Assembly: GCA_039818985.1 (NCBI GenBank) | Contig: JBCBSU010000002.1 | Location: forward strand, 372,001 to 436,000 | Source of the DNA: Pseudomonadota bacterium | Lineage (GTDB): Bacteria > Pseudomonadota > Alphaproteobacteria > Sphingomonadales > Sphingomonadaceae | DNA length: 64,000 nucleotides | Reading direction: 5' to 3' | Shown here: one piece after another, positions 53,898 to 61,890 of the stretch | How the letters are laid out: each line of letters begins with the position of its first letter | How positions within the stretch are numbered: the first letter of the stretch is position 1 | Position numbers and translations under genes: made by a program | The notes under the pieces: generated by a model | The model's input: the letters and a program-made list of their open reading frames with translations, nothing else | What the model was told of the DNA's origin: nothing | Database searches by the model: none

Positions 53898-56332
53898 AGT
53901 TCACGCTAAGCTGGCTCAAAGAGCATCTCGACACCGAAGCGAGCCTTGAGGAGATCACCGAAAAGCTGACCGCCATCGGGCTGGAGCTGGAGGGGGTGGA
54001 GAACCCCGCCGATGCGCTGCGTCCATTCCGTGTCGCCAAGGTGCTGGAAGCCGGGCCCCATCCCAATGCCGACAAGCTGCAACTGCTCAAGGTCGATGAC
54101 GGCAGCGATGATGCGCCCTGGCAGGTGGTCTGTGGCGCGCCCAATGCGCGCACCGGCATGGTCGGCGTATTCGGCCCGCCGGGGACCTATATTCCGGGCA
54201 GTGACTTCACCCTCAAGCCCGCCAAGATCCGCGATGTTGAAAGCTTCGGCATGATGTGCTCGGCGCGCGAGCTAGAGCTGGGCGAGGACCATGACGGCAT
54301 TATCGAACTCGATGCTGATGCGGAAAGCGCTGTCGGCCAGAGCTATGCCGATTATGCCGGGCTCGACGATCCGGTGATTGATGTGTCGGTAACGCCAAAC
54401 AAGCAGGATTGCATGGGCGTGCGTGGCATTGCGCGCGATCTGGCAGCATCGGGTATTGGCACATTGAAGCCGCTGAACATCGATGCTGTAGAGCGCTTGG
54501 GCGCTGGCCCCGATATCAGGATCAGCGATAGCGAAGGCTGCCCGGCTTTTTATGCTTGCACCGTTTCGGGCGTGGCCAATGGCACGGCCCCGGACTGGAT
54601 GCAGCAGCGGCTGCGCGCCATTGGCCAGAACCCGATTTCGGCGCTGGTCGATATCACCAACTATGTGATGTTCGATCTCGGTCGCCCGCTGCACGTCTAT
54701 GACATGGCAAAGCTCAACGGCCCTCTCGAAGCGCGCAAGGCCAGGTCGGGCGAAAGCCTGACCGCGCTCAACGGCAAGGAGTACTCGCTCGACGAGACCA
54801 TGACGGTGATCGCCGATGACAATGGCGCGCATGATATTGGCGGGATTATGGGCGGCGAAGCCACCGGCGCGGCGGACGACACAACAGATGTGCTGATCGA
54901 ATGTGCCTATTTTACGCCTGAGCATATCGCCATCACCGGGCAGAAGCTGATGCTGACCTCGGACGCGCGCCAGCGTTTCGAGCGCGGCGTCGATCCGGCT
55001 TTTCTCGATGATGGTATCGAAGTTGCGACGGCGTATGTCGTGTCATTGTGCGGCGGCAGCGCCAGCGACATTACCCGCACAGGCACACCACCAACCGAGC
55101 AGCACACCGTCGCTTATGATCCATCGCACTGCTTGCGTCTCGGCGGAGTCGATGTCGCGCTGGACGCGCAAGTGGCGATATTGGAGCGACTGGGCTTCGC
55201 AGTGGACAGCGTCGCAACGCCCTGGACCATTACCGTGCCGACATGGCGGCGCGATGTGCATGGATCGGCCGATATTGTCGAGGAAGTCATTCGCATCACG
55301 GGGCTGGATGCCGTGCCTTCAACGCCGCTGCCGCGTGCACCGGGTGTTGCCAAACCCACTGCTTCGCCAGCGCAGCTAATGGAGCGCAAAGTCCGTCGCG
55401 CTGCGGCTGCGCGCGGTCTTAACGAGGCGGTCAACTGGTCGTTTATCTCGGAGAAAGAAGACGCAGCCTTGCGCGGACAGGGCAATCAGGGTGGCGACAA
55501 CATCATCCCCTGGGTGCTCGCCAATCCGATCTCTGAAGACCTGAAAGTCATGCGCACCTCGATGCTGCCCGGCCTGCTGTCAGCGGCCAAGCGCAATATG
55601 GACCGCGGCGCGACGTCAATCCGTCTGTTCGAAGTTGGGCGGCGCTACTTTCGTAGCGGCACCAATGCGAGCGACGAGCGTGCCACCATCGGGCTGGTGC
55701 TGGCAGGCGAAGCCAGCCCACGCCAATGGCAGACGGGCAAGCCTTTGGCGTTTGATCCCTATGCCATAAAGGCCGAAGTTCTGGCGCTGCTCGAAGCGGC
55801 AGGCGCACCGGTTGGCAATCTGATGGATTTCGTCCCCGATGATGCGGGGCCGGGTGGGCATTACCATCCCGGCCAGTCGGCGACATTGCGCCTCGGCCCG
55901 AAAAAGCTGCTCGCCTCCTATGGCACGCTGCACCCCAAAACCACCAAGGCATTCGGCCTCAAAGGCGCGGTGATGGCGGCAGAGATCTTCCTCGACGCCA
56001 TTCCCGCCAGACGCAGCAGTGACCATATGCGATCCACCTACGCGCCCCCGGCGCTGCAGGATGTGACGCGCGACTTTGCCTTCATCGTCGATGCAGCATT
56101 GCCTGCCGATGATCTGGTGCGCTCGGTCAAGGGCGCAGACAAAAAGGCAATTGTCGGCGCACGGATCTTCGATCTGTTCACCGGCGCAGAGCTGGGCGAC
56201 GGCAAGAAATCGCTCGCGCTCGAAGTCACGCTGCGCCCCGGCGTGGCAAGCTTCACCGATGACGAGCTGAAGGCGATTTCCGACAAGATCGTTGCCAATG
56301 CGGCCAAGCTGGGTGCGGAATTGCGCCGCTAG
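53894..56332 (+). CDS. pheT: Phenylalanine-tRNA ligase beta subunit
   Basis: PheT supplies editing and tRNA binding. The 812-residue subunit begins [21 protein letters not shown], has the EMAP-like tRNA-binding domain ([15 protein letters not shown]), the B3/4 editing region, the B5 domain, [13 protein letters not shown], and an FDX-ACB C-terminus ([52 protein letters not shown]). The stop lies in CTAG shared with the convergent amine oxidase gene. Confidence 0.98.
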
Positions 56333-57561
56333 CCCGGATAGGCGCGCGCCAGTGTCGCCATGGCCTGCGCCACCATCTGCCTGTCGCTTTGCCCGGCCAG
56401 TGCCAGTGCCGCGGAACCGCCGTTAAATGCGGCGATGACCGGGCGCTGGATATAGCGATTCAGATTGAGCCAGAGATTGAATTGCCCCTGTTTCAGACCG
56501 TTTTCCGGCGTGGCAATCCAGGTCGATGTATCCCAGAAAGGCCGGTCGAACAGCAGATAGACTTTGTCGAGCGTGCCCATGCCCAGCCGGTCAATGGCCT
56601 GTTGCTTGCGTGGTGGCAGTGGCGGATCAAACCGCACCAGCTTCTTTTTCAGCACGCCGAGCGGCAGGGTGATGATAGCGGCATCGAAAGCCGGTTTCTC
56701 ACCGCTCGCCAGACCGATGGCAGGGCCCCGCTCACCTTTCGTCACGCTGGTGACAACACTTCCCAGTCGCACATCATAACCGGCCTTTAGCGCATCCAAT
56801 ATCCCGGCATAGCCATTGGGGAAGATCACATGCCTGCCGCCATAGTCCTGCTGATAATTATAGGCACCAAAATCGATCTGGTCGCTATCGGCGGCATATT
56901 CATTCTGCACCTCGCCGACCTCATAAAGCCATTCCGGCGCGTTCCGGATACTGATCATGCGACCATCGCCGCCCCTTATCCGGTAGCTGTCATTGGTAGG
57001 GATGTATTTCTCGCCTGCCTGCCTCGCCAGATCAGTCAGCGGATTGCGCTTGATTCCGTGGATCCAGCTCGCACCCAGATCAAGCGGCAGGCCGAGGCTT
57101 TGATCGGTCCATAGCCGCCCGCCCAGCCGATCGCGGGCCTCGAACAGCGTCACATCATAACCACGCGTCGCGAGGAAATGCGCCGCCGAAAGCCCGCTCA
57201 TCCCGGCACCGACAATAGCGATTTTCTGTGCCCCGCTGCGGCTGGCCGCGCGCGCCGCCGTCTGGCCCGATTCATAGGCGGCATGGACAGTGCTGGTATA
57301 ATCCGGATTGGCGGCCTCTCCGGCAAAGTACAGCCAGTCCGCGACAGGTTCGGCCAGTGCGCGAAGATCTCCGCGATTCGAGCCATGGGCGAGATAGGAA
57401 TAGGCGCCAAGGCTATAGCGATCGCGGCTCCAGTTGGTGCGGATATAGCCCAGCAGTTTGGCACCGCGCGGTGCTTCGACTGCGAAAGCGCGAAAACCCA
57501 TGGGCAAGGCAGCGCCAGCGCTCAAAAGCGCCATATGTTTGAGCACAACCCGTCGGTCCAT
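56329..57561 (-). CDS. Flavin amine oxidase with circularly permuted module order, Tat-like signal
   Basis: FAD-dependent amine oxidases oxidise amines or related substrates. In the normal order the protein starts with the GxGxxG Rossmann motif and ends with a WS.DPYSLGSYS...FAGEA...HGAYLSG tail. Here the order is reversed: after a signal-like start (MDRRVVLKHMALLSAGAALP), residues 38-106 carry the tail (NWSRDRYSLGAYSYLA, EPVADWLYFAGEAANPDYTSTVHAAYESG). Only then comes IAIVGAGMSGLSAAHFL (residues 114-130), FEARDRLGGRLW, the substrate domain with LDKVYLLFDRPFW (Lys333), and the protein stops at ATLARAYPG, which is where the tail would normally begin. All parts are present, so the enzyme may be active. 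The substrate is unknown. The stop shares CTAG with pheT. Confidence 0.85.
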   Translation of the reverse strand: MDRRVVLKHMALLSAGAALPMGFRAFAVEAPRGAKLLGYIRTNWSRDRYSLGAYSYLAHGSNRGDLRALAEPVADWLYFAGEAANPDYTSTVHAAYESGQTAARAASRSGAQKIAIVGAGMSGLSAAHFLATRGYDVTLFEARDRLGGRLWTDQSLGLPLDLGASWIHGIKRNPLTDLARQAGEKYIPTNDSYRIRGGDGRMISIRNAPEWLYEVGEVQNEYAADSDQIDFGAYNYQQDYGGRHVIFPNGYAGILDALKAGYDVRLGSVVTSVTKGERGPAIGLASGEKPAFDAAIITLPLGVLKKKLVRFDPPLPPRKQQAIDRLGMGTLDKVYLLFDRPFWDTSTWIATPENGLKQGQFNLWLNLNRYIQRPVIAAFNGGSAALALAGQSDRQMVAQAMATLARAYPG

Positions 57562-60883: not shown

Positions 60884-61890
60884 ATGTGGGGGCGGTTTGC
60901 ATTTTTTGTCGTGGCGTTGTGCGCATTTGTGGCGGCGAGTCCCGCCGAGGCGCGCAAGGTGGCGTTGATTATCGGCAATTCCGATTATGGCCAGGCCGCC
61001 CCGCTTACCAACCCGGCCAATGATGCGGCACTGATCGCCAGGGCCGGAACTGGCTGTTGCCGGTCGATGCCATTCTCAACAAGGCGCGCGACCTGCCCTA
61101 TGAGGCGGTCGATCTGGAGCGGGTAATGGAAACACTCGACGGGGCCCAGGTGCGCATGGTGGTGCTTGATGCCTGTCGCAACAATCCCTTTGCGCGCACC
61201 TGGAAAAGCGGTACCCGCGCGGTGCGGCGCGGCCTTGCCGGTATCGAGGTCGATGATGTCATCGTCATCTATGCCGCCGCGCCGGGGCAAACCGCAAGCG
61301 ATGGCGATGGCGCGGCAAACTCGCCCTTTGCCACCGCGCTGGCCAGACGCCTGCCGGAGATTGACCTGCCGTTGCAGCTGCTCGGCGGGTCGGTGCGCGA
61401 TGACGTCCTGGCGGCAACCAATGGCGACCAGCGCCCCTTTGTCAGCGCCAGCGTCACCGGCACACCGATCTATTTGCGGCCCGAATTGCGCACCCGCCCG
61501 GCGCTGGGCGAAGCCGGTGCAGCGCCATCCGGTCCGGCGGTGCTGACCAGCGGCGCGGTATTGGTATCGGATATCCGCATCGAGACGATCAAGCTCTCCG
61601 GGTTTTTCGGCAGGCCCGACAATCTGTTCATCGAATTTCCCGACGGCCAGCGCATCCCGGGCGAGCCGAAATCATCCTACCGGGTGAAAAAGGGCGATAT
61701 ATGGGAACCGGGGGACACAGTAACCCTGCCGGCCGGGTCGTCATTCCGGGTGATGGAATATGACGATGTCGGCGGGCATGACCTGCTCGGAACCGTCCAG
61801 CTGGCGCCGGTCGAGGGTTCGCACAGCGTGACGCTGAATGGCGACAAGAGTGAATACCGGCTGACCTACAGCATCGCTCCCACGCCCTGA
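60884..61890 (+). pseudogene. Caspase-like (peptidase C14) gene broken by an internal deletion and frameshift
   Basis: The 5' part (60884-61043) encodes a signal peptide and the caspase-like start ARKVALIIGNSDYGQAAPLTNPANDAALIARAG. After base 61043 the frame shifts; the second frame continues with NWLLPVDAILNKARDLPYEAVDLERVMETL, the part normally found about 65 residues later. The missing piece holds the catalytic His segment (usually YYAGHG). The catalytic Cys region (VVLDACRNNPFARTW) and a C-terminal beta domain remain intact to the stop. An out-of-frame deletion between 61040 and 61048 explains this. A shorter protein could start at 61057 but would lack the catalytic dyad. Confidence 0.8.

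Follow-up and report, generated by a model that had tools for sequence, protein, structure and literature searches.

A probable natural circular permutation in a bacterial flavin amine oxidase

The 64,000-nucleotide stretch of DNA analyzed here (the window) encodes a flavin amine oxidase whose parts stand in an unconventional order, which raises the question of whether it is a working enzyme that has been circularly permuted in nature. Flavin amine oxidases, including MAO, LSD1, and the polyamine oxidases, are drug targets and biocatalysts with well-studied folds. Natural circular permutation as such is well known, and to our knowledge no natural case has been described in flavin amine oxidases; among the titles and abstract openings listed by a search of the open-access literature for permuted amine oxidases or flavoenzymes, none reports one. 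Taking all lines of evidence together, we consider it very probable that the product of this gene is a flavin amine oxidase circularly permuted in nature, and that it is active, mostly exported, and derived by tandem duplication with truncation of the ends. An inherited permutation with a clean breakpoint offers a direct test of whether chain order matters for folding and catalysis across the superfamily, and the permuted enzyme is a ready scaffold with new termini.

Order of the modules in sequence and predicted structure

The gene, identified from its open reading frame and Pfam, occupies 56329–57561 on the minus strand as a single unbroken frame with an ATG start (410 amino acids plus stop), and all of its parts lie on that strand. 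A Tat-like leader (residues 1–30; 57472–57561) with DRR and then a hydrophobic stretch is followed by a displaced C-terminal module (residues 31–110; 57232–57471) carrying W44, D47, Y54, FAGE at 79–82, and T91, which in the conventional family order forms the end of the protein. The remainder (residues 111–410; 56332–57231) comprises the FAD-binding Rossmann part and the substrate-binding domain, conventionally the start of the protein. The GxGxxG of the FAD-binding motif, located through the alignment of permuted proteins, lies at residues 118–123 (57193–57210). The preliminary description had placed the C-terminal module ahead of the Rossmann motif, and its motifs and residue numbers are correct.

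Pfam Amino_oxidase (PF01593) matches the protein strongly (E 2.2e-65; 222.2 bits, where the curated cut-off is 19.8), with the match split over three stretches, the best of which places residues 222–409 on profile positions 170–366 of 443. Such a strong domain match can mask a rearrangement of this kind. The family is collinear in the order Rossmann part, substrate domain, C-terminal module; here the C module comes first, ahead of the Rossmann part and the substrate domain, and the protein is therefore a permuted variant rather than an ordinary PF01593 member. Among the best 25 of 123 NCBIfam matches, the best stretches all include the Rossmann motif and none reaches the cut-off. Alignment to human LSD1 is likewise out of order. 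Residues 112–201 and then 239–405 align collinearly, and residues 41–105 fall beyond both of these pieces, at the LSD1 C-terminus, in a match that is weak by itself (i-Evalue 0.047). The protein had also been said to end exactly where this module normally begins. Model residue 410 falls on LSD1 737 in the structural superposition and, by numbering arithmetic, the module resumes near LSD1 748, so that the claim holds to within a few residues.

The effect of restoring the conventional order was measured with a profile built from 31 conventional relatives and run on 49 permuted proteins in native and reordered form; five proteins that are cut, shortened, or oddly extended (L053, L057, L058, L060, and L064) were excluded from this comparison and from the trees. 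The conventional profile spanned the native C|N junction in 0/49 proteins and the reordered N|C junction in 49/49, as the preliminary description's proposed alignment of the reordered sequence anticipated, an outcome partly built in by the way in which order had been assigned. The best stretch gained a median of 91 bits on reordering (range −25 to 193; 49 proteins). One match covering >90% of the profile length was obtained for 7/49 reordered sequences as compared with none of the 49 in native order, and the reordered sequences mostly remained broken within the variable substrate domain.

A structure was predicted with AlphaFold2 from 46 permuted sequences (mean pLDDT 92.1, pTM 0.89). Means over ten-residue blocks are 92–98 across residues 31–110 and fall below 80 in the leader only, where they are 46–60. 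Residues 111–410 of the model superpose on LSD1 (7vqu) residues 278–737 with Z 27.1 and an rmsd of 1.7 Å over 295 residues, and the stretch from about residue 108–112 to 410 superposes on LSD2, LSD1, and maize polyamine oxidase with Z of ~25–27 and 1.7–2.6 Å over ~290–300 residues. These superpositions stop at LSD1 737 and maize polyamine oxidase 379, ahead of the C-terminal modules of those proteins.

Modeled by itself, the C module reached moderate confidence (pLDDT 79.0, pTM 0.56). In Foldseek, ranks 1–27 of 30 for this isolated module were amine or L-glutamate oxidases, at weak E-values of 0.015–0.85. Several VIA rows place its residues 31–82 on LSD1 768–831 at 1.7–1.8 Å with a modest Z of ~4–6, and whole-module VIA alignments are spread over LSD1 403–831 at ~4–5 Å. 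Residues 111–410 thus superpose on these folds at about 2 Å, and the module by itself matches them weakly. As the structure aligners are sequential, the N part and the C module were superposed separately; the evidence that the C module would sit on the FAD domain is the pTM and the per-residue confidence of the model. In the model, a linker of residues 108–112 (57226–57240) joins helix 92–107, formerly C-terminal, to Rossmann strand 113–117, and the confident model together with this short linker suggests that the two original ends would lie close in space.

A short linker could also serve a domain-swapped dimer or higher oligomer, in which each FAD domain would be completed by the displaced module of a neighboring chain and the enzyme would work as an obligate oligomer. 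Permuted and swapped states often have contacts in common, and the conventional contacts could form in trans. We regard such a swap as quite improbable, given that, by block means and pTM, confidence in the monomer model is high along the whole C module, so that no swap is needed. The circular permutation is supported by sequence, by profile alignment, by structure prediction, and by recurrence in independent genomes.

Conserved residues, selection, and export

Flavin amine oxidases bind FAD through GxGxxG, RxGGR, and a C-terminal FAGE motif. Conservation was read from an alignment of 46 of 54 distinct permuted proteins, in which the window protein (L001) was entered as P0001; the five aberrant proteins named above, the Okeania near-copies L029 and L030, and L055 were left out. 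Invariant in 46/46 are K333 (56563–56565), W44, the GxGxxG glycines, R145, GGR at 147–149, and AGE at 80–82. Y54, T91, and H168 of a WIHG motif are kept in 45/46 and F79 in 42/46. K333, Y54, and T91 align with K661, Y761, and T810 of LSD1, K661 being its active-site lysine.

Purifying selection acts on both modules. When the window gene is compared with the closest relative in genome G001, a simple count, at a dS near 1, gives a dN/dS of ~0.19 for the whole gene, 0.10 for the C module, 0.19 for the N module, and 0.34 for the leader. These values bear on the reading of the gene as a functionless decayed remnant of a tandem array, formed from the C half of one gene and the N half of the next. 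One relative genome (G001) does hold two tandem permuted copies, and one metagenomic relative (L043) has an in-frame stop; open frames of ~400 amino acids nonetheless occur in the same order in five phyla, the catalytic residues are invariant, and dN/dS is well below 1 in both modules, which makes a decayed remnant very improbable. For the window copy itself, the open frame and dN/dS rule out a pseudogene. The permuted relative at L043:3980–4460 has its stop past the Rossmann motif, through either decay or sequencing error.

The function best predicted from these residues is that of an active amine oxidase, and a polyamine is our guess as to the putative substrate, from the likeness of one short motif to spermine oxidase. 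Neighboring genes at 50 permuted loci, from rough ORF calls, gave no shared family that reached more than 5/50 loci, the gene itself aside. One of the two widest families is a loose group that by eye includes unlike ABC-type ATPases, and the other consists of antisense ORFs of the gene. With no conserved neighbor, these loci give no clue to the substrate.

The leader of the window protein, MDRRVVLKHMALLSAGAALPMG, is Tat-like both by eye and by rule, with DRRVVLK followed by a hydrophobic run. The twin arginines at the start had been remarked on earlier; they are present in the window, and the genome carries tatC. A simple rule of our own (twin arginines and then a hydrophobic stretch), applied after L053 and L060 had been dropped, scored a Tat-like leader in 46/57 permuted proteins. 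The eleven below the rule are the G001 second copy, the G002 copy, L062, L065, L070, L080, L083, L096, L103, L146, and L147. L062, L065, L070, and L080 are from Nocardiopsis and Nocardia, L146 and L147 are from another class of the phylum, and the two named first are paralogues within the window's own genus. These eleven failures indicate that permutation is not strictly tied to export.

A lipobox-like cysteine beside the twin arginines was found by rule in six actinobacterial proteins (L058, L064, L093, L098, L100, and L101); the rule misses L083 and L103, which by eye look like Tat lipoproteins, and wrongly scored L050 as lipobox-bearing. The leaders suggest that the actinobacterial permuted proteins L058, L064, L093, L098, L100, L101, and L103 may be Tat-exported lipoproteins.

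Export of a folded FAD protein by Tat would then proceed as follows. The mature protein begins with the former C-terminal segment of the FAD domain, which about five residues link to the Rossmann strand, and the chain ends where the displaced segment once began. This protein would bind FAD and fold in the cytoplasm. Tat would carry the folded protein to the periplasm, and in some actinobacteria it may be kept as a lipoprotein. An amine, perhaps a polyamine, would be oxidized to an imine or aldehyde with H2O2 as the by-product.

Occurrence in other genomes and origin

Permuted proteins are present in 3/3 genomes searched from the window's genus. The window's genome has one. G001 has two in tandem (L021:2828–5314), whose products share 72 and 53% identity with the window protein; for the single copy in G002 the identity is 48–49%. 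The genus copies sit between pheT and prfC. Pfam confirms both neighbors in the window, those in G001 and G002 were named by eye from their likeness to the window neighbors, and G002 has one extra ORF inside the interval. One copy of the G001 tandem has a Tat-like leader and one lacks it; G000 has only the form with a leader and G002 only the form without.

Wider samples, each of which includes the window's genome, contain few permuted copies. The family sample has them in 3/397 genomes (E 1e-30), the same three genus genomes, and four other matching genomes there are conventional in order. The class sample has a confirmed permuted copy in 3/385 genomes (E 1e-40), with G423 not counted; 20 of its 50 listed matches received no locus, of which 19 start at profile position 96 or later and the other is G423 (49–404, two stops). 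The phylum sample has permuted copies in 5/398 genomes (E 1e-60), and no plasmid record matched at E 1e-30.

In a scan of one genome per species, we analyzed the best 80 of 553 confirmed relatives. Scoring of these best 80 gave 50 permuted and 26 conventional loci, with L074 and L079 in neither class; the permuted total becomes 52 with L047, which was scored permuted and is identical in sequence to the G002 copy, and the stop-interrupted L043. Homologues with the same order, which the preliminary description had proposed to seek, thus exist at 52 of the best 80 loci and in five phyla: the 50 comprise 30 from Pseudomonadota (27 Alphaproteobacteria), 12 from Actinomycetota, 5 from Cyanobacteriota (all Okeania), 2 from Verrucomicrobiota, and 1 from Myxococcota. 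Unrelated organisms, assembled independently, show the same order in one frame, which excludes the assembly or frame artefact that had been raised as a refutation, and we give that explanation practically no weight.

Four candidates were set aside. G032 (L005/L023) looked permuted, with its first match at 59–180, and is conventional, as the leader is followed by the Rossmann motif. G535 (L117) starts in the conventional way and has no C module in its frame. In G672 and G748, profile matches of 27–403 and 32–402 run across stop codons and represent tandem conventional genes.

A family that is rare yet widely scattered suggests horizontal transfer of the permuted gene. In the tree, the Okeania genes (L025 and L027–L030, four of them near-identical) adjoin the Verrucomicrobiota pair, a neighborhood that suggests transfer between bacteria of different phyla.

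As for the number of origins, the N-module and joined trees of 80 rows each contain one change of order (support 87 and 95). Bacterial amine oxidases may instead have been permuted more than once, each time close to the same breakpoint. Three changes of order appear in the C-module tree (69 columns) and in a 118-row tree that includes long branches, where the permuted groups from actinobacteria and some of those from proteobacteria lack a firm link to the main clade. Removing 17 long or redundant rows returns the latter to one change, separating 47 permuted from 54 conventional rows with a support of only 18, and in none of these trees do the branches with strong support require more than one change. 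We consider repeated origin unlikely, though a serious alternative, and a single origin of the permutation likely.

By the route that we find plausible, duplication and truncation, a conventional gene would have been duplicated in tandem, the C part of the first copy would have been fused to the N part of the second, and the outer halves would have been lost, with a signal kept or regained in front. No intermediate of the permuted lineage was found among the relatives examined, which offered only tandem permuted genes (G001) and distant conventional ones. The alphaproteobacterial tandems at L126:502–3027 and L127:154–2679 (G672 and G748) each consist of conventional genes that share a frame and are separated by 45 bases. 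They show that the precursor arrangement that is needed occurs, in a distant subfamily.

It is conceivable, though on balance doubtful, that one old permutation founded a separate exported amine oxidase family across phyla. The permuted order might have been favored because the Tat signal is then attached to the C-terminal module and kept clear of the FAD-binding strand, which would allow cofactor loading and quality control before export, or because the new termini open beside the substrate entrance.

Known relatives and a further locus

LSD1 and LSD2 (KDM1A and KDM1B) are the closest solved relatives, both by sequence (E 7e-40) and by fold (Z ~27). LSD1 has the conventional order, with a Tower insertion and a SWIRM domain, whereas the window protein is permuted, has 410 residues, and carries a Tat-like signal. 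Maize polyamine oxidase (1b37) shares the fold (Z 25.6, 2.1 Å over 297 residues) and is conventional in order. The human spermine oxidase stretch LGATWIHGSHGNP resembles LGASWIHGxxxNP of the window protein at an E-value of 0.37, not significant by itself; a better match for this stretch is the solved "amine oxidase" 8een (E 0.0005). Spermine oxidase and N1-acetylpolyamine oxidase have the conventional order, unlike the permuted enzyme. The closest conventional sequences among the best 80 relatives are the 26 from Chloroflexota and other bacteria, with 33–41% best-segment identity, and in all of these the Rossmann part comes first and the C module last.

Module residues 31–81 also resemble the C chain of L-glutamate oxidase from Streptomyces sp. 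X-119-6 (2e1m_C and 9w55_C; 49 residues, 1.6 Å, Z ~6). According to passages of PMC13026155, cleavage at three sites yields the mature form of that enzyme, which is active with a cut backbone. There a protease cuts the chain after synthesis, whereas the window protein is already encoded in the altered order. An engineered permutation of the flavoprotein MurB, LucY, is described in passages of PMC4408115. In the main text of a paper on the polyamine oxidase tree (PMC7576179), neither "permut" nor "circular" occurs.

Elsewhere in the window, an 80-residue ORF at 60884–61126 contains VALIIGNSDYG and has no Pfam match. An overlapping ORF in another frame, at 61057–61890, has a Peptidase_C14 match confined to the second half of the profile (positions 101–229 of 233, E 4.5e-10). 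Together, 60884–61890 has the look of a single caspase-like gene broken by a frameshift, either real or from sequencing.
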